DNA of 41,987 nucleotides from a virus. How positions within the stretch are numbered: the first letter of the stretch is position 1; the number at the start of each line of letters is the position of its first letter. This document shows, one piece after another, positions 12,293 through 23,938 of the stretch. The position numbers and the translations under genes are program-made. The notes beneath the pieces are model-generated. The model did not search any database. It saw nothing but the letters and a program-made list of their open reading frames with translations, and was not told the DNA's origin. The stretch lies in the IMG/VR virus record IMGVR_UViG_3300028802_000035, positions 1 through 41,987 of that record; one strand, written 5' to 3'.

Positions 12293-12732
12293 CCGACGGC
12301 CCCGATCTCGCGGGGATGGCGGACGCCCAGGCCCGCCTCCGCAAATTCACCGGGGAGGACGTGATCTTCTACACGCCGACCGGCACTGAGTGGCCCCCCG
12401 ACGCGGTACTCGACCCGCAGACCGGCAGGCCGTTCGACCCGCTGATCGAGCCGATCGCCTCCGGCTTCTCCTCGGCCGCCGTGCGCTGCAACATCGCCTC
12501 TCGGCCGGTCAGCGGCCTGAACGACCAGACGGCCGAGACGCCGATCGGCAACATCGAGCTGGGCGGTGTCGTCCTCATCATGGGCGTGGACGACAAACCG
12601 ATCATCGCCGACGCCACGGAGTTCGACGCGAAGGGCGACCACTTCAAGATCACCCAGACCAAGGACGACGGCATCGGCTCGAACTACCGAACGCTCGTCT
12701 GGGGCGAGCGGATGATGGATTCCTGGACGTGA
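12289..12732 (+). CDS. Probable head closure protein
   Basis: The 147-residue protein begins at GTG 12289, overlapping the previous stop as GTGA, and ends overlapping the next GTG in the same way. The sequence suggests a beta-rich fold (GEDVIFYTPTG, NIELGGVVLIMGVDDKPI, SNYRTLVWGERMM). This size, fold and place after the adaptor fit the stopper that seals the filled head (SPP1 gp16-like). The call depends largely on gene order. Confidence 0.55.
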   Translation: MTDGPDLAGMADAQARLRKFTGEDVIFYTPTGTEWPPDAVLDPQTGRPFDPLIEPIASGFSSAAVRCNIASRPVSGLNDQTAETPIGNIELGGVVLIMGVDDKPIIADATEFDAKGDHFKITQTKDDGIGSNYRTLVWGERMMDSWT

Positions 12733-13436
12733 GCACCTGCCTCCTCGTCACGACGATGGACCGGGGGCCGCTGCTGCGGCAGAGCCTCGCCGTGCTGGCG
12801 GACGGAGACTTCACGCTTCCCGACGAGATCCTTGTGATCGATGACGGCGGCACCGACGACACCGAGCAGGTCTGCCGCGAGGCCGCCGAGCACCTGCCGG
12901 TCCGCTACATCTACCACCACAATCCCGGCGCCACCCTGTGCAGCGAGGCCCGGAACGTCGGCCTGAAACTCACCGCCGCTGACATCGTCATCACCTGCGA
13001 GCCCGAGGTCTACTTCCAGACCGACGTGATCGCGCAGATGCTCGCGCTGCACGAGGAGTTCCCCGACCTGCTCATCAACGCAGGGACGGTCCACAAGATG
13101 CGCAACGGCGGCGGCCAGGAGACTCTGGTCGAATGGTGGGCGACCCACTGCTGCCTCTACCGGCGCGACTGGCTCCTGGAGGTCGGCGGCTGGGACGAGA
13201 GCTTCCCCGACAACTGGGGCTGGGACGACACCGACCTGGTGACGCGGCTCAGCAACATCGGCCACAAGGGGAAGAACGATCCGAGCATCGTCGTCGTCCA
13301 CCAGTGGCATCCTGAAACGACGATCGATCAGGGGCCGAACTCGAAGCACTTCCTCGACAAGAAGCTCGACCACGGCGACGAGCACGTCGTCGCCAACAAG
13401 GGAACCGCATGGGGCCAACACCGCCCACGTTCGTAG
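12729..13436 (+). CDS. Family 2 glycosyltransferase
   Basis: The frame is open upstream of the gene, but the GTG at 12729 overlaps the preceding stop (GTGA) and gives a 235-residue GT-A protein beginning STCLLVTTMDRG. Motifs include VIDDGGTDDT (36-45), SEARNVGLKLTAADIVI, a CEPE segment (90-93) in the place of the usual DXD, and WGWDDTDLVTRL (163-174), typical of an acceptor-side acidic motif. It transfers a sugar from a nucleotide donor to an unknown acceptor. Lying within the neck genes, it may glycosylate virion proteins. It overlaps the next gene by 28 nt. Confidence 0.88.
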   Translation: MSTCLLVTTMDRGPLLRQSLAVLADGDFTLPDEILVIDDGGTDDTEQVCREAAEHLPVRYIYHHNPGATLCSEARNVGLKLTAADIVITCEPEVYFQTDVIAQMLALHEEFPDLLINAGTVHKMRNGGGQETLVEWWATHCCLYRRDWLLEVGGWDESFPDNWGWDDTDLVTRLSNIGHKGKNDPSIVVVHQWHPETTIDQGPNSKHFLDKKLDHGDEHVVANKGTAWGQHRPRS

Positions 13437-16393: not shown

Positions 16394-17632
16394 ATGAGCG
16401 TTCACGCCGGTTCCATCATCCACGTTGGCGGCAACAGCGTTGTCGATCGCATCCAGTCCGCCGGTCTGGGAGACGTGCGTCTGCCGATCGAGATCATCCG
16501 CGAGACCGGCAACCGCGAGATCGTGGACAAGGTTCCCGGCGAGCCCGACTTCACGTTCACCCTCGAATCCTTCGATGTCGGCGTTGACACGATGGCCTGG
16601 CTGACTGGCAAAGTCGCCGCCTCGCTCAGCGCCTCTGCCGCCGCCCCCGGTGCCGCCGACCCGGACGGCACGCAGTACTCCTGGCTCGACTGCATCTTCG
16701 TCAACATCGCCTCGCCCTGGACCGATCCGAAGTCGGGGTCCGCCGGGGTCGTGGAGGCCGGGCACCTGATCCCCTCCTACTACCCGACCCGCATGACCCA
16801 GCGCTACGGGGTCACCGACAACGCGCAGTACACCGTCGAGCTGTCGGGCGGCGCGTTCTTCTACGGCAAGTTCGCGCCGGTCGAGGAGTACGCCACCGGC
16901 AACGGCAGCACCACCGACTTCGAAACCGACGACAACGCGATCAAATACCGCGAGGGCGGCGTGGAGGGCACGACCTTCCAGAGCGTCTTCGGTGTGATCG
17001 TGGATGGCGAGCTTCAGGTCGCCGACGAAGACTTCGAAGTTACCGGCGGCGAAGGCGCCCCGGCCATCATCAAATTCACCGAAGCGCCGGAGAGCGGCGC
17101 GGTCGTCAAGTTCTGCTACTTCACGGATGCCGCGCGGGCCTTCCCGCAGCCGGTCCACCCCTCGACGGTCACCAAGCCGGGCGCAGTCCGAGGCCGGAAC
17201 ATCAAGATCGAAATCGATGACGAGCGGATCACGGGCGGCCAGACCTTCGAGCTGGAAGCCAGCGTCGAAGGCGAAGTCGAGCGCGAACTCGGCAACACCG
17301 ACATCACCGGCCGTTCGGTCAGCGGCACGGATGCGAAAGGCACGTTCACGGTCCGCTCGAAGGACTCGGACGCCTTCTTCAAACTGCTGACCAAAGTGAC
17401 CGGCGTCTCCGAATCGGAGATCTACGGCTGGTTCAACAACAACACGGTGAAGCTAGCCGTGAAGATCGAGAACCCGAAGAACCCCGGCGAAATCATCAAG
17501 ACGATCCTGGTCGAAGACGCCAAGTTCCAGCCCCCGGGGACCCCGGCTCGGGTCAACCAGCCGACGGACTTCGCGATGGGCTGGGAGTCGATCAGCGGAA
17601 ACTTCGTAGAGGTCAAGGGCGAGCCCGCCTAG
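16394..17632 (+). CDS. Major tail tube protein
   Basis: The 412-residue protein follows the small 16127 gene immediately and has a GGAGAG ribosome site. It is rich in beta strands (NIKIEIDDERITGGQTFELEA, FAMGWESISGNFVEV), and the order before the frameshifted chaperone and tape measure genes identifies it as the tail tube subunit. It is longer than simple tube proteins; residues about 165-235 may form an inserted domain (FETDDNAIKY, GVIVDGELQVADEDF) exposed on the tail surface. Confidence 0.82.
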   Translation: MSVHAGSIIHVGGNSVVDRIQSAGLGDVRLPIEIIRETGNREIVDKVPGEPDFTFTLESFDVGVDTMAWLTGKVAASLSASAAAPGAADPDGTQYSWLDCIFVNIASPWTDPKSGSAGVVEAGHLIPSYYPTRMTQRYGVTDNAQYTVELSGGAFFYGKFAPVEEYATGNGSTTDFETDDNAIKYREGGVEGTTFQSVFGVIVDGELQVADEDFEVTGGEGAPAIIKFTEAPESGAVVKFCYFTDAARAFPQPVHPSTVTKPGAVRGRNIKIEIDDERITGGQTFELEASVEGEVERELGNTDITGRSVSGTDAKGTFTVRSKDSDAFFKLLTKVTGVSESEIYGWFNNNTVKLAVKIENPKNPGEIIKTILVEDAKFQPPGTPARVNQPTDFAMGWESISGNFVEVKGEPA

Positions 17633-17735: not shown

Positions 17736-18713
17736 ATGAGCGACGCACCGGCAGCAGCAAAACAGCCCGACGAGAGCGCGACGCAGGAGCAGCCGCAAGG
17801 CGATGCCGCGCCGACGCCGGAGAGCGATGTAGATGCGACTCCTCCGGCCTCGGAGGAAAACACGACGCAGGTCCCGACTTCCCAGGTAGACGGCCGTGCC
17901 GCCGAGCGGATGTTCCGCTACAGCGGCTACGTCCACGTCGGCCCCGGCGCGGCGGATTGCGAGGACGGCGAGGACGGCACCTGCGGCGACCCGCTGCACT
18001 TCCACGCCTGGTGCCGCCTCCCGAACAAATTCCAGATGGCGGCCATCCGCACCAAGTCGCAGGCCGCGAAAGCTCGGGCGATCCGGCGGCTGAAGGACCC
18101 CGAGGCCGACCAGCACGCGATCCTGGAGGGCGACCTCGAATCGATCCGCGATGCAGGCAAGGAGGCGTTGGTCGAAGAGGTCCTGTCTCGGACCTATTGG
18201 CGCGACCACCTGGCGGCGATGAAAGAGCTGGCCGAGCCCGAGGACGATCAGGACGAGAGCCCCTTCGCCACGATCGAACAGGATCAGCTCCGCTTCAAAG
18301 AGCTGACCGAAATGTCGGAGGAGGAGCGGCCCAAAGACGAGTACGACGAGCTGGTCCGTCATCTCGACAAATGGAACGAGGAAGTCGATCGCGTCCGCGA
18401 GGAGCACCAGCGTCCCCAGCGCGAAAGCCTGGAGGCCCGCAGCGAGGACGACCTGATCGACTTGATCCGTGACGAACGGATCAAGACCGAAGCCGACCAG
18501 GAGTACATGCTTATCTACTCGGCCGAGGAGTGGGCGGCCTGCACCCTTCGGCCGCGCCCGAAAGACAAGGGCGTGCCGAACGAGAAGTGCTTCGGCTCCG
18601 TCGAGCAGATGAAACAGGAAGCCCCCGAGGTCGTCGTGGCGCTGGAGGCGATGTTCACCGAGCTGGAGGGTGAATTCGCCAACCGGGCAGCCGTGAGGGC
18701 GGAGGGAAACTAG
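17736..18713 (+). CDS. Tail assembly chaperone, upstream product (gpG-like)
   Basis: The 325-residue protein has a disordered Ala/Pro/Glu N-terminal tail of about 60 residues, then a region with CEDGEDGTCGDPLHFHAWC and a helical charged C-terminal half. It lies between the tube and tape measure genes, the fixed location of the chaperone pair that wraps the tape measure. Its last codons are GAG GGA AAC followed by TAG, in which GGGAAAC (18704-18710) is a canonical -1 slippery heptamer. Some ribosomes should shift here and extend the protein to 19048. The ATG is preceded by AGGAG. Confidence 0.8.
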   Translation: MSDAPAAAKQPDESATQEQPQGDAAPTPESDVDATPPASEENTTQVPTSQVDGRAAERMFRYSGYVHVGPGAADCEDGEDGTCGDPLHFHAWCRLPNKFQMAAIRTKSQAAKARAIRRLKDPEADQHAILEGDLESIRDAGKEALVEEVLSRTYWRDHLAAMKELAEPEDDQDESPFATIEQDQLRFKELTEMSEEERPKDEYDELVRHLDKWNEEVDRVREEHQRPQRESLEARSEDDLIDLIRDERIKTEADQEYMLIYSAEEWAACTLRPRPKDKGVPNEKCFGSVEQMKQEAPEVVVALEAMFTELEGEFANRAAVRAEGN

Positions 18714-18776
18714 TCACGAGCGATGAGTGGCTTGACACTGTCCGCATCGCTCGTGACCTCGGCGACGTGTCAAGCC
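18704..18776 (+). promoter_or_regulatory. Programmed -1 frameshift signal with H-type pseudoknot
   Basis: The slippery heptamer GGGAAAC is 18704-18710. Stem 1 pairs 18713-18725 with 18745-18757 over 13 perfect base pairs. Its loop contains 18729-18738 (GGCTTGACAC), exactly complementary to 18767-18776 (GTGTCAAGCC), forming a 10-bp stem 2. Loops are 3, 6 and 9 nt. The 2-nt gap between heptamer and stem 1 is shorter than usual, so the base of stem 1 probably melts. Confidence 0.85.
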
Positions 18777-19048
18777 TCTTCCCGAGAGGTATCACGTCGC
18801 TCGGTGATCTCCCATACCACCTGCACGACGCCATCGTCATGGGGCTCCAGTTCCTTCGCTTCGAGGAACTGCCGAAGGAAGATCGGCCCCGGCGCGGGAT
18901 ATGGCTCAATGACGAAAAACTACGCGCTCACTTCGATGCCGTCGAAAAGCGGCAGGAAGAAAAATACAAGTACGACGAGAAAGGTCAGTCTCAGGCCATC
19001 GAGGACCCGGTGGAGAACCCGGCGGCCAAGATGCTGATGGCGGAGTAG
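18710..19048 (+). CDS. Tail assembly chaperone, frameshift extension (gpT-like)
   Basis: This reading frame has no stop back through the slippery site, so after a -1 shift at GGGAAAC translation runs on as LVTSDEWLDTVRIARDL for 112 residues to the stop at 19048, fused to the upstream chaperone (about 437 residues in total). A GTG at 18767 could give a shorter separate product, but the frameshift explains the upstream conserved-looking residues. The charged C-terminal half (VEKRQEEKYKYDEK) suits a tape-measure chaperone. The stop is directly followed by the tape measure ATG. Confidence 0.78.
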   Translation, partial: LVTSDEWLDTVRIARDLGDVSSLFPRGITSLGDLPYHLHDAIVMGLQFLRFEELPKEDRPRRGIWLNDEKLRAHFDAVEKRQEEKYKYDEKGQSQAIEDPVENPAAKMLMAE

Positions 19049-22000
19049 ATGGCCGACGGATTCGACAGCGATTTCGCGAAAGGCGAGCGCGAAGCTGCGC
19101 GGCTAGTCAGCCGCATGGAGCAGGCCCTTAAACGGGCCGAGGAATTCGAGCGCCAGGCCGCCCGCGAGCGCCAGCTTGCCCGCCGGTCGGGGCGCGGCGG
19201 CGAGCCGGGTTCCGGTGAGGCTGGAACCTCCGATCGCGTCAGCCGCCGTCTCGATGACGAGAAAGCGATCACCAACCAGAGCCGCGAACGCGAGAGGCTG
19301 ATCCAGCGGGAGACCCAGGCCCTCTCGGCACAGGAGCGGATGATCCGCCGCATCCGCGCCGTCGGCCCCGCCGCCTTCACCGAGGCGACGCTCGCCGGTC
19401 CCGGCAGCGTCCCGCCCAATCGCCGTCTCCCACCCGGCCCGCCCGGTGGCTACTACGAGTACCCTGGCCAGCGCCAGCTCCCGCCCGGGCCGCCGCCGCC
19501 GCTACAGCTCGGCCCCGGCGCTCGGCCTCCGCTCGGCCTGCCTTCGCCGGGCGAGACGGTCGGCGGCAGCCGCTACCTGGAGGAAGAGGCGAAACAGGCC
19601 GCCAGCGCCTCGCGCGGCTACGACCAATACCAGCGCTCCCAGCGCGCCGCCGCCGACTCGAATGTCCGCTTCGGCCGCAGCCTCGGCGAGAACCTGTTCA
19701 TCCAGCAACAGGCCAACACGCAGTTCTCTCGCTACGGCGCGCTCAGCACCGAGTGGATTGCGGCCACGGCGCGCGGCTCGACCACCATCCAGGAGCTTGG
19801 CCGCCAGACGACGGCGACGATCGGGAAGTTCGGCGGCTGGCTCGCGGCAGGCTCCCTCCTCTACACCGCCCTCGGCGCGGTTCAGGCAATCGGCCACGGC
19901 GCGATCGAATCTGCGAGCGGCGTCAACCAGCTCCAGCGTGTCATCAACAACGTGGACCCTGGCACCGCCCAGGCCGGGTTCCGCCAGTACAGCCAGCAGT
20001 TCAACCTGCCGATCGGCGATGTGGCGAGCGCTGCCTACGAAATGGGCAAAATCTTCCACGATCAGAACGAAGCGCTGGAGGCTTCCAAAGCCGTCCTGTA
20101 CTCCGTCAAAGTCGGCGAGCTGGACACCGCCACGGCGTCGCGTTACCTGATCGCGATCATCAACGGCTTCCACCTTCCGGCGAGCCAGATGGTCACCGTC
20201 TTCGACCAGCTCAACGGCGCGCAGAACAAGTTCGGCATCTCGATCAACGATGTCGAGGCCGGGCTCGCCAAGGCGTCCGGTGCCTTCAACGCCGCGACGA
20301 CGAAGGGCAGCCCGCTGGAGAAATACCACGAGCTGCTGGCCCTCATCACCACCGCGCAGAAGGCGACCGGCCAGACGGGTCAGGTCGTCGGTACCGCGAT
20401 CCAGCGCGCGCCGAACTTCCTCAAACAGGCCAACAACCAGGCCGTCCTCAAAAAATACGGAATCGATGCTGGCGGCGACCTGAACCAGATCATCAACGAA
20501 GCGTTCAAAGTCGCGCAGGGGTTGAGCGGCCACCAGATCGGCGAGCTGGCCTCGGCCATCTTCGGCCCGCAGTACGGAGCCCGGATCGGTACCCCACTCC
20601 TCCAACAGTACGACCTCTACAAAAAAGTCTTCGCTGGAACGAGCAAAGAGAAAACCCGCAACTCGGGCCAGCGAGAGCTGAACACCCTGCTCGCCTCGAT
20701 GAGCGAGGAGCTGTCACGGGTCATCACCCAGATCGAAATCATCGGGTCGGGGCTCGCCCAGGCTGGCTTCCTCGACATCTTCGGGGAGAGCGTCATCGTC
20801 CTCAACCAGCTCCTCAGCGGTGTCAACGACCTGCTCGAACTCTTCAACAAGCTTCCGGCTCCGCTCACCCACACCCTCGCGATCATGCTGGAGCTGTACG
20901 GCGTCGTCGCGGTGCTGCGGAAGTTCAACCTCGGCGACTCCTTCGCCGCCGGTTCGCTTGGCCGCCGGGTCCTCTCTGGCCCGAACCGCGACAAGCGGCT
21001 GCTCGATGAGAGCTACACCGGCCAGGTCGGCTTCCTGACCCAGGAGCGCGACCGCTCCGCCACCCAGGCGAGCCGGGCCACGACCGGCGTTCGCGTCGCC
21101 AACGCTCGGGTCTTGCAGGAAGAGGAGAAGCTGGCAGCGCTCAAGGTGTCCCAGGGCGCGACGGCCGAGGCGGTCCTCGCCCAGGAACGCAACATCGTCA
21201 GGGCCGAAACGCAGCGCAACGCGGCGATGGAGCGCAAGCTCGCCGCCGAGCTGGCCGAGGAAGAGCTGCTGCTCACCCAGATCGCCGTCGAAGACAAGAA
21301 GGCCGCGCTGGTCGCCGCCCGCAACGACGCCGAGGCGCGGGTCCTTGCGGCGCGCTACGGCGACATCGTGCCGACCAGCTTCGACCAGGGGGCCGCCGTC
21401 AGCGGGCGTCAGGCCGCCGAGGCGCGCGGCTACGCCGTGGTCACGAACCCCGACGGTTCCTACGGCCTCTCGCGGTCCGGCGCTGGTCCCTCGGCGGCGG
21501 CGGGCGCGGCGGTAGCGGCAGAGGCGGACCGAAGCGCCCGCGCCGCGCAGTCGGGCCTGCGCGGCGCGGGCGGGGCCTGGCGCAATCTTGCGCTGACGGA
21601 GATCAGCCTGGCGCAGCCCGGCGCCTCCTATCGCGATGCCGTCGGGCGGGCAGGAACGGCGTTGTCCGCGAGCAGCAAAACGGTCAGCTCCGCTGTGCTC
21701 GGGGTCTCCCGGCTTGGACCGGCGTTGGCGACTGCCGGAGCCCGGATGGCCTCCCTCGGACGTGGTTTCTACGGGCTGATCGGCGGTCCGCTCGGGGCGC
21801 TGCTGATCGGCTCCTATCTGGCGATCGAGTACGGCGACGACCTTGGCCGGGCGCTGGCGGGCGGCCAGAACGTCATCGACAAGATGAACTCCTTCGAAAC
21901 GGAGCACGTCACCACGGGCGCCCAGAACAAAGGCTTCCTTCACCAGTACGAACGGCTCGCAGAGGAGGCCGGGCTCAGCCTGAAACAGCTTCAGACGCAG

Positions 22001-23938
22001 CTCCCAACGCTTCACCTGGATGGGCTGCCCGAGTATTTCGATGCCGAAGAGGCATATCTACAGCAGCTCGAAAGTCGCAACCAGAAGATCGCACACCGAC
22101 AAGGGCGGGCAGGCAAAAACCTCTTCCCCGACCAGCTCCGCAACCAGGTTCAGGGGCTCAGCGATTACCAGGCTGGCACCGGCAAATTCAACCAGGAATT
22201 CCGTCGGGTCCAGGAGGAGCTGCGCTACGCCAATAGCGCCAGCGACCCGAAGGAACTGAAAAGTGTCAAACGCGAACTCGAACTCGTTGGCGCGAAAGCT
22301 CTAAATAGTTCGACGCAGGTCACGGGTTTCTTCAGCCAATTCCAGGCGCTCGCGGACAAGCTGCTGGAAAAACAGATCAAAAACCTCAGTTCCCTCGTTC
22401 AGGGTGGCCCGACCTTCGGCTCTCGCAAAGACGTGGGTGCGCTCGTGCGGGCGAGCCTGGTGCGCGGCATCCGCGATCTTCAGTCCCCGAAGGCGAGCGT
22501 CCAGGCCAAAGGGGCGCAAACCCTCACCGAACTCCCCGACGCGCTGGAGGCTTACGGGCAGGAGGAATTGAAGACCAGCCTCGACCTGGCCCGGACCCAG
22601 GACCAGCGCTATGCCGCCTACCAGCGGTACATCAGTTTGCTTCGTGGTTCGGCCAAACAGCTCCAACATTCCTTTGGGAGCAACCGTCAACACCTGACCA
22701 ACCAGCTCCAGAAAACCGAAGAGGACCTGCGCAAGGCATACGCCGAAGGCAAAGGCCGCCAACAGAGCGACTACACGGGAGGCCCCTCCTTCGGGGTCGA
22801 GCCTTCACGCGGCCCCGACCCCGTCATCGCCCGGCTCAAGGAACGAGCGGCTGCCCTGCGCAAAGCGATCGGCAACCTCTCGAAAACCCAGAAATACGAG
22901 CTGCGCCAGATCAGGGCTCTCATCGCCGCACAGGAACGCGAACGCCTCCAGGAAGAAGTCAGCGCGATCCAGGAAACCAGCCAAATCAAATCGGCACGGA
23001 TCGGCGACACTGATCCGGTCGGTCAGGCTCAGGTCGGTCTTCGCGCGGCCGAGCGGGTTCTTTCCCTGGTTCGCAGCAAAAGCGGAACCCCCCAGGAAGT
23101 CCGGCAGGCTCTCCTCGCAGTTCTTAACGCGCGTCAGGAGTTGACCGACGCAGTCCGCCAGGAAGCGAGTGAGCTAGCCGATGCCACCCAGCAGCTCGCG
23201 AAGGCGAAGGCCCAGGGTGACCCGATCGCCCAGGCCCAGGCTGACATCGCCCGCGCCCAGGCCCAGTTGAGCGCCGCCCGCACCGTCGCCGAGCGCCGCT
23301 CCGCCCTGGCCGAGCTGATCGAAGCACAGAACAACCTCGACAAGGCATATGCGGAAATCGCGCTGGCGCGACTCGCCCTCAAGGCGGCGCAGACCGACGA
23401 TCCAATCGCGCAGGCCCGGATCAAATTGCGCGAGGCCGAAGTGCAGCTCAAATACGCCAAGGGTCCACTCGAACGACTCGAAGGACAGGCCGCGAAACAG
23501 CAGGCGATCCGCGATAAGCGCGATGCAGTCGCTCAGACCCGGATCGAAGACATCCAGTTCCAGGCCGACATCGGCAAAATCAGCCACGAGCAGGAGATCG
23601 CCGCCTACGAACGCCTCCTCCACACGCTCACGCTAAGTCGTGACACGCGTCGCGAGTTAAGGCGAAAGCTTCACGACCTGCGCGCGGAAGACGCCGAAAC
23701 CGGGGACTTCGAGCTGACCGTTGGGGATATCCAGCTCCCTACGATCTACGACATCCGGCGAGCGATCGGCGGCAGCGCGGGGCCGAACCGATCGCAGTAC
23801 AACGATCAGTCCACCACCACGGTCCATATCACCGTCAATGGTGGCGAGCGGAATGCTCTGTTCCGGGAAGTGGACAATGCCCTCAACCGTGGCAACAAGA
23901 GCGCCCGACGCTCGGCAGGCCACATCCCAACGCGATGA
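19049..23938 (+). CDS. Tape measure protein
   Basis: At 1629 residues this is the longest gene and follows the chaperones. Three hydrophobic segments lie near residues 259-286, 605-627 and 905-932, fitting a protein that enters the host membrane during ejection. A segment near 440-520 (GQVVGTAIQRAPNFLKQ, LASAIFGPQYGARIG) is typical of TP901-type tape measures. The C-terminal third is helical, with three related repeats beginning DPVGQAQ (about 1321), DPIAQAQ (about 1390) and DPIAQAR (about 1450). Using about 1.5 angstrom per residue, the tail should be roughly 240 nm. No lytic domain is evident. Confidence 0.93.
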   Translation: MADGFDSDFAKGEREAARLVSRMEQALKRAEEFERQAARERQLARRSGRGGEPGSGEAGTSDRVSRRLDDEKAITNQSRERERLIQRETQALSAQERMIRRIRAVGPAAFTEATLAGPGSVPPNRRLPPGPPGGYYEYPGQRQLPPGPPPPLQLGPGARPPLGLPSPGETVGGSRYLEEEAKQAASASRGYDQYQRSQRAAADSNVRFGRSLGENLFIQQQANTQFSRYGALSTEWIAATARGSTTIQELGRQTTATIGKFGGWLAAGSLLYTALGAVQAIGHGAIESASGVNQLQRVINNVDPGTAQAGFRQYSQQFNLPIGDVASAAYEMGKIFHDQNEALEASKAVLYSVKVGELDTATASRYLIAIINGFHLPASQMVTVFDQLNGAQNKFGISINDVEAGLAKASGAFNAATTKGSPLEKYHELLALITTAQKATGQTGQVVGTAIQRAPNFLKQANNQAVLKKYGIDAGGDLNQIINEAFKVAQGLSGHQIGELASAIFGPQYGARIGTPLLQQYDLYKKVFAGTSKEKTRNSGQRELNTLLASMSEELSRVITQIEIIGSGLAQAGFLDIFGESVIVLNQLLSGVNDLLELFNKLPAPLTHTLAIMLELYGVVAVLRKFNLGDSFAAGSLGRRVLSGPNRDKRLLDESYTGQVGFLTQERDRSATQASRATTGVRVANARVLQEEEKLAALKVSQGATAEAVLAQERNIVRAETQRNAAMERKLAAELAEEELLLTQIAVEDKKAALVAARNDAEARVLAARYGDIVPTSFDQGAAVSGRQAAEARGYAVVTNPDGSYGLSRSGAGPSAAAGAAVAAEADRSARAAQSGLRGAGGAWRNLALTEISLAQPGASYRDAVGRAGTALSASSKTVSSAVLGVSRLGPALATAGARMASLGRGFYGLIGGPLGALLIGSYLAIEYGDDLGRALAGGQNVIDKMNSFETEHVTTGAQNKGFLHQYERLAEEAGLSLKQLQTQLPTLHLDGLPEYFDAEEAYLQQLESRNQKIAHRQGRAGKNLFPDQLRNQVQGLSDYQAGTGKFNQEFRRVQEELRYANSASDPKELKSVKRELELVGAKALNSSTQVTGFFSQFQALADKLLEKQIKNLSSLVQGGPTFGSRKDVGALVRASLVRGIRDLQSPKASVQAKGAQTLTELPDALEAYGQEELKTSLDLARTQDQRYAAYQRYISLLRGSAKQLQHSFGSNRQHLTNQLQKTEEDLRKAYAEGKGRQQSDYTGGPSFGVEPSRGPDPVIARLKERAAALRKAIGNLSKTQKYELRQIRALIAAQERERLQEEVSAIQETSQIKSARIGDTDPVGQAQVGLRAAERVLSLVRSKSGTPQEVRQALLAVLNARQELTDAVRQEASELADATQQLAKAKAQGDPIAQAQADIARAQAQLSAARTVAERRSALAELIEAQNNLDKAYAEIALARLALKAAQTDDPIAQARIKLREAEVQLKYAKGPLERLEGQAAKQQAIRDKRDAVAQTRIEDIQFQADIGKISHEQEIAAYERLLHTLTLSRDTRRELRRKLHDLRAEDAETGDFELTVGDIQLPTIYDIRRAIGGSAGPNRSQYNDQSTTTVHITVNGGERNALFREVDNALNRGNKSARRSAGHIPTR

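Follow-up and report, generated by a model that had tools for sequence, protein, structure and literature searches.

The uncultured tailed phage studied here very probably produces its tail assembly chaperones by a programmed -1 ribosomal frameshift of the G/GT kind, with a 13-bp stem and an H-type pseudoknot downstream of the slippery sequence. The probability of this reading may be put at about 0.85. The stretch of DNA that was analysed, hereafter the window, is 42 kb long (positions 1-41987), and the frameshift region described below is on its + strand. Two overlapping frames lie there between the tail tube and the tape measure genes. The first one, G (17736-18713), encodes a protein of 325 amino acids, ends with TAG at 18711-18713 and has homologues at the same place in 17 relatives. 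Its name comes from its position and from the frameshift, without a Pfam or PHROG match. The 3′ end of G reads ...GCG GAG GGA AAC TAG. It contains a heptamer of the X_XXY_YYZ type, G_GGA_AAC (18704-18710), in phase for tandem -1 slippage and directly followed by the stop codon; GGGAAAC or GGGAAAA is found at the same place in nine of the 17 relatives. The -1 frame, T (18704-19048), is open from GGG AAA up to a TAG ending at 19048. Its 114 residues are predicted to be made only as the extension of a G-T fusion. An SD-like GAGGG is present at 18695-18699, 4 nt before the heptamer, as well as in the relative L008, and similar sequences occur in L009 and L006. It was rejected as a -1 stimulator, since internal SD sequences that stimulate such shifts are reported at a spacing of 9-14 nt (PMC5009743).

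The gene order on the + strand, tail tube, G, T and tape measure, is that of lambda. The upstream neighbour (16394-17632) is a major tail tube protein of 412 amino acids, as assessed from its predicted model; it is conserved, with 53-64% identity in the relatives. The model is of modest quality (mean pLDDT 61); its best match is the tail tube of P74-26 (E 2.5e-5), and structure comparison shows that the T5 and DT57C tubes also resemble it. The downstream neighbour (19049-23938) begins directly after the stop codon of T. It encodes a tape measure protein of 1629 amino acids that matches six PHROG tape-measure families, the best with E 3.9e-21. In profile searches, G and T gave no PHROG or Pfam match and are thus not tied by homology to known G or T families. 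This absence does not define the kind of element, because known chaperones share low sequence similarity with one another (PMC5009743). Most of the structural proteins tested had no PHROG or Pfam match either, annotated phage records gave no near DNA match to the window and no match to the G protein, and no Rfam family was matched at curated thresholds. The virus seems to represent a group of tailed viruses that has yet to be described; its relatives are on contigs as long as 88 kb. A family 2 glycosyltransferase (Pfam PF00535) is encoded at 12390-13436, between the capsid and the tail genes.

All 17 relatives are IMG/VR contigs. Two of them were reached from the capsid protein and the others from tail tube and T proteins. 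Queries with G, T and the tape measure protein of the window found nothing in viral contigs; in genome contigs, neither G nor the tail tube protein found any relative. Identity of the T proteins to that of the window ranges from about 36 to 64%. Every one of the 17 relatives encodes a homologous T in a frame other than that of G, and the shift is therefore conserved. In the window and in all the relatives, T becomes conserved from the shift site onwards, a point that has no start codon.

The two-stem fold follows the heptamer. Stem 1 is formed by GTCACGAGCGATG (18713-18725) and CATCGCTCGTGAC (18745-18757), with 13 of 13 positions paired. Within its loop, GGCTTGACAC (18729-18738) is complementary over 10 of 10 positions to the downstream GTGTCAAGCC (18767-18776), giving stem 2 of an H-type arrangement with loops L1, L2 and L3 of 3, 6 and 9 nt. 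The first-pass annotation had given the same 13 and 10 perfect pairs, as well as GGGAAAC in the correct -1 phase directly before TAG with the -1 frame open to 19048, and on all these points the letters agree with it exactly. A perfect H-type fold of 13 + 10 bp occurs only once on the + strand of the window, and even 10 + 8 bp is reached only there; the reverse strand carries the same repeat as the complement of this fold. Sixty simulated sequences of equal length, drawn from a first-order Markov model, contained no such fold.

It may be asked whether the complementarity is a matter of chance or a coding artefact, the T peptide and a GC-rich codon bias sufficing to produce it. When the T peptide was recoded with the phages' own codon usage (5000 variants), peptide and codon bias alone indeed gave on average 8.5 of 13 pairs in stem 1 and 6.5 of 10 in stem 2. 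However, 13 pairs in stem 1 were reached by 0 of the 5000 variants. Stem 1 in the window is thus well beyond chance; for this stem the chance explanation is refuted, and with the single occurrence of the fold and the comparative evidence given below its overall probability becomes negligible. Ten pairs in stem 2 were reached at the same columns in 3% of the variants (P = 0.03). Taken alone, stem 2 is only moderately beyond chance because the peptide DTV ... DVS already favours GACAC/GTGTC. With stem 1 held fixed, the energy of stem 2 has P = 0.021 in the window, 0.076 in L008 and 0.0047 in L009. The window alone is therefore insufficient to establish stem 2, and relatives are needed to support it. 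The two stems together were scored by adding up stacking energies, loops carrying no penalty, and such scores serve here only for comparison with the synonymous null. In each of the window, L008 and L009, the score exceeds those of all 60 synonymous variants.

Five sequences are gapless in this stretch, those of the window, L008, L009, L006 and L007, and they were used for the stem alignment. The pairing cells are filled at 95% for stem 1 and 78% for stem 2. Compensatory changes, which the first-pass annotation had proposed to look for in homologues, were found in both stems, two pairs in stem 1 and four in stem 2 being changed on both sides. In stem 1, A-U is replaced by G-C and U-A by A-U. 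In stem 2, U-A becomes G-C in L009, and the core TTGACA/TGTCAA becomes TCTCGA/TTGAGA in L006. Covariation scores 0.300, whereas shuffles give 0.177 (0/500) and sliding the partner yields no more than 0.109; the five sequences being kin, these shuffle counts are not probabilities. With a codon-aware null, which keeps the peptide and not the phylogeny, stem 1 has 62 of 65 pairs in the five sequences (null 44.9 +/- 2.8, 0/4000). By the same null, stem 2 has 28 of 30 pairs in the window, L008 and L009 (null 19.3 +/- 2.6, 0/4000) and 39 of 50 over all five sequences (P = 0.001).

Another possibility would be that the shift is real and that its stimulator is only the stem 1 hairpin, the complementarity of stem 2 following for the most part from the conserved T peptide. 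The 6.5 pairs out of 10 obtained by synonymous recoding point this way, as do the hairpin-like structures found in most GGGAAAA relatives and the lack of significance of stem 2, taken alone, in L006 and L007. Set against this are the P values of stem 2 given stem 1 in the window and its two closest partners, the pooled 28 of 30 pairs and the four pairs changed on both sides. Such a hairpin-only stimulator is thus considered unlikely, while keeping appreciable weight. For the preferred two-stem reading, the scope of stem 2 has to be specified. It is absent from its columns in L004, L010, L011 and L026, and the idea that it is conserved family-wide was rejected on this ground together with the results for L006 and L007. 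Stem 2 is secure only for the three members with GGGAAAC, namely the window, L008 and L009. Within that scope, structure, neighbouring genes and compensatory changes together uphold the earlier description of a strong, structured frameshift element.

Outside these three, the stimulator of the family looks mostly like a hairpin, differently placed near the heptamer. In L010, L011 and L026/L027, which have GGGAAAA, extended hairpins start 6 nt after the heptamer, and in L004, also with GGGAAAA, a 12-bp stem starts 3 nt after it. In all of these, the minimum free energy of the 60 nt is below the synonymous expectation (z -2.6 to -4.0). Clades with other shift sites serve as a negative control, stem 1 being missing there from these columns.

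The spacer between heptamer and stem 1 is formally of 2 nt in the window (18711-18712), as had been remarked beforehand. The shortness is real on paper, but it is probably not a special feature of the element. A ribosome occupying the heptamer would open the lowest pairs of the stem, and in relatives the stem lies 2-8 nt from the heptamer: the same stem starts 8 nt after it in L006, a continuous stem core starts 5 nt after it in L007, and the outermost pair of the stem is lost in L009. For these reasons the 2-nt gap is probably not functional as such, and the arrangement would correspond to an ordinary spacer followed by an over-long stem. Opening of the lowest 3-5 bp of stem 1 would give a spacer of 5-7 nt, compared with about 5-9 nt for frameshift pseudoknots, and would leave a hairpin of -11.5 to -14.9 kcal/mol.

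Considering these features, the following mechanism may be envisaged. A ribosome holding GGA in its P site and AAC in its A site would be stalled by the very stable 13-bp stem, whose loop would pair with the downstream sequence, so that the ribosome would meet a pseudoknot rather than a hairpin alone. A minority of the ribosomes would re-pair one base back on GGG AAA, bypass the TAG and read T to give the G-T fusion. The remaining ones would terminate at the TAG and release G. By analogy with lambda, G would coat the tape measure protein and GT would recruit tail tube subunits, and the rate of shifting would set the G:GT ratio. The last position of the heptamer, Z = C, would make a weak slip codon for bacterial ribosomes. 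As the strongest folds accompany GGGAAAC and weaker ones GGGAAAA (three versus six distinct sequences), it is tempting to imagine that the fold compensates for a poor slip codon.

In tail frameshifts of the lambda type, a heptamer functions with no strong fold. The lambda G/GT site, G_GGA_AAG, shares with the window the gene order, the -1 shift at G_GGA_AAZ just before the stop codon of G and the fusion protein, the latter being a prediction in the window. Z is G in lambda and C in the window, and the G and T proteins of the two phages are not recognisably similar in sequence. No notable structure was found downstream of the lambda site, and its two-stem score is not above that of synonymous variants. 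The haloarchaeal virus HCTV-1 uses the same heptamer as the window, G_GGA_AAC, for its g-t frameshift in a tail assembly chaperone gene (PMC5009743); no two-stem structure was found at this site, where the score is again not above synonymous variants. HK97 has no notable fold (z = -0.8). A precedent is that of corynephage phi16, for which a -1 tail-assembly frameshift with an H-type pseudoknot was predicted (PMC5506516). It likewise has a tail tube gene upstream and a tape measure gene downstream; it differs by its heptamer, GGGGGAA, and by an internal SD, the prediction coming from one genome. By the score applied to the window, the two-stem fold of phi16 is not better than its synonymous variants. 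The statement that such pseudoknots are rarely described for phage chaperones is hence right as far as rarity goes, but calling the present one unprecedented would be wrong, and the window element is a strong, comparatively supported variant of an already proposed kind. Pseudoknot stimulators do act on bacterial ribosomes, as in Lactobacillus phage A2, IS3 and Listeria phage PSA (reviewed in PMC5009743), in other genes or unrelated chaperones and at other sites.

The recoding signal itself varies within the family. In L005, L012, L018, L020 and L029, T is still in the -1 frame, and CTA AAA GGY stands instead of the canonical heptamer, CTAAAAGG at L005:12294-12301 and at the same place in the four others. 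At this site a single-tRNA slip on A_AAA would seem to be needed. GGAGG or GAGG occurs 13 nt before AAAA in two of the five, L005 and L029, a distance that falls in the range reported for stimulation of -1 shifts. The first 60 nt of this clade are less structured than expected (z +2.1 to +3.7). About 50 nt after the site, a hairpin of 10-12 bp is found in four of the five members (P 0.002 or lower), that of L029 being weaker (P = 0.024). It is located at L003:17803-17826 (L003 and L005 are one contig) and in the same columns of L012, L018 and L020, with base pairs changed between members. This hairpin is too far downstream for an ordinary stimulator. This distance would suit the view that the inverted repeats have another role, ending transcription, stabilising the mRNA as a hairpin or controlling translation of the tape measure gene, with the heptamer incidental; a stable hairpin close to the junction of two genes could work in such a way. 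However, no U tract follows the stems in the window, the stems are inside the conserved T coding sequence, and T lacks its own start codon where its conservation begins. Moreover, the GGGAAA members keep a structure 2-8 nt from the heptamer, and the clades with other sites are devoid of stem 1. Such other functions appear very improbable, and the frameshift reading is retained.

In L014, L017 and L023, T is in the +1 frame. These three share GGG AGG TCN CTT CAA (L014:9630-9644, L017:10271-10285, L023:10234-10248), a putative RF2-like +1 site in homologous G/T genes that replaces the -1 heptamer. The layout, an SD-like hexamer, 3 nt and then CTT C, is that of the prfB +1 site, for which a 3-nt spacing has been reported (PMC5009743). 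The likeness to prfB concerns this branch only, and the two differ in having CTT C AA versus CTT TGA C, in the absence of a stop codon at the shift, and in the gene, a tail chaperone rather than a release factor. The motif GGGAGGNNNCTTCAA was found nowhere else in the loci examined, where AGG, CTT and CAA are minority codons. If CTT is read and C skipped, the next codon is AAG or AAA, which leads to the conserved start of T. Judging from frame and motif, a +1 shift would thus be used in these three. In the tail tube and G+T trees, which are unrooted, the members with CTAAAAGG form one clade and those with T in the +1 frame another, both with strong support. The two lie together, apart from the GGGAAA members, which form no single group.

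It is thus rather likely that within one chaperone family the entire recoding mechanism has been exchanged and the fusion protein retained, the versions being GGGAAAC with a pseudoknot, GGGAAAA with a hairpin, a lone A_AAA before GGY with no nearby structure, and a +1 site of the form GGGAGG-N3-CTT-CAA. For a phage coat gene of Listeria, both -1 and +1 versions exist (PMC5009743). A change of direction within one chaperone family was not found described in the papers searched, a set that lacked the founding survey of 2004 and most other subscription papers. If the proposal is true, selection would preserve the fusion and the ratio of the products rather than the signal, or indeed the direction of shifting. 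The family has diverged sufficiently for covariation of a pseudoknot with long stems to be seen at a tail frameshift site, and on the resolved part of its tree it offers natural replacements of the signal, including the apparent change of direction. It therefore opens direct tests of what sets the G:GT ratio, and of whether weak slip codons are offset by stronger stimulators.
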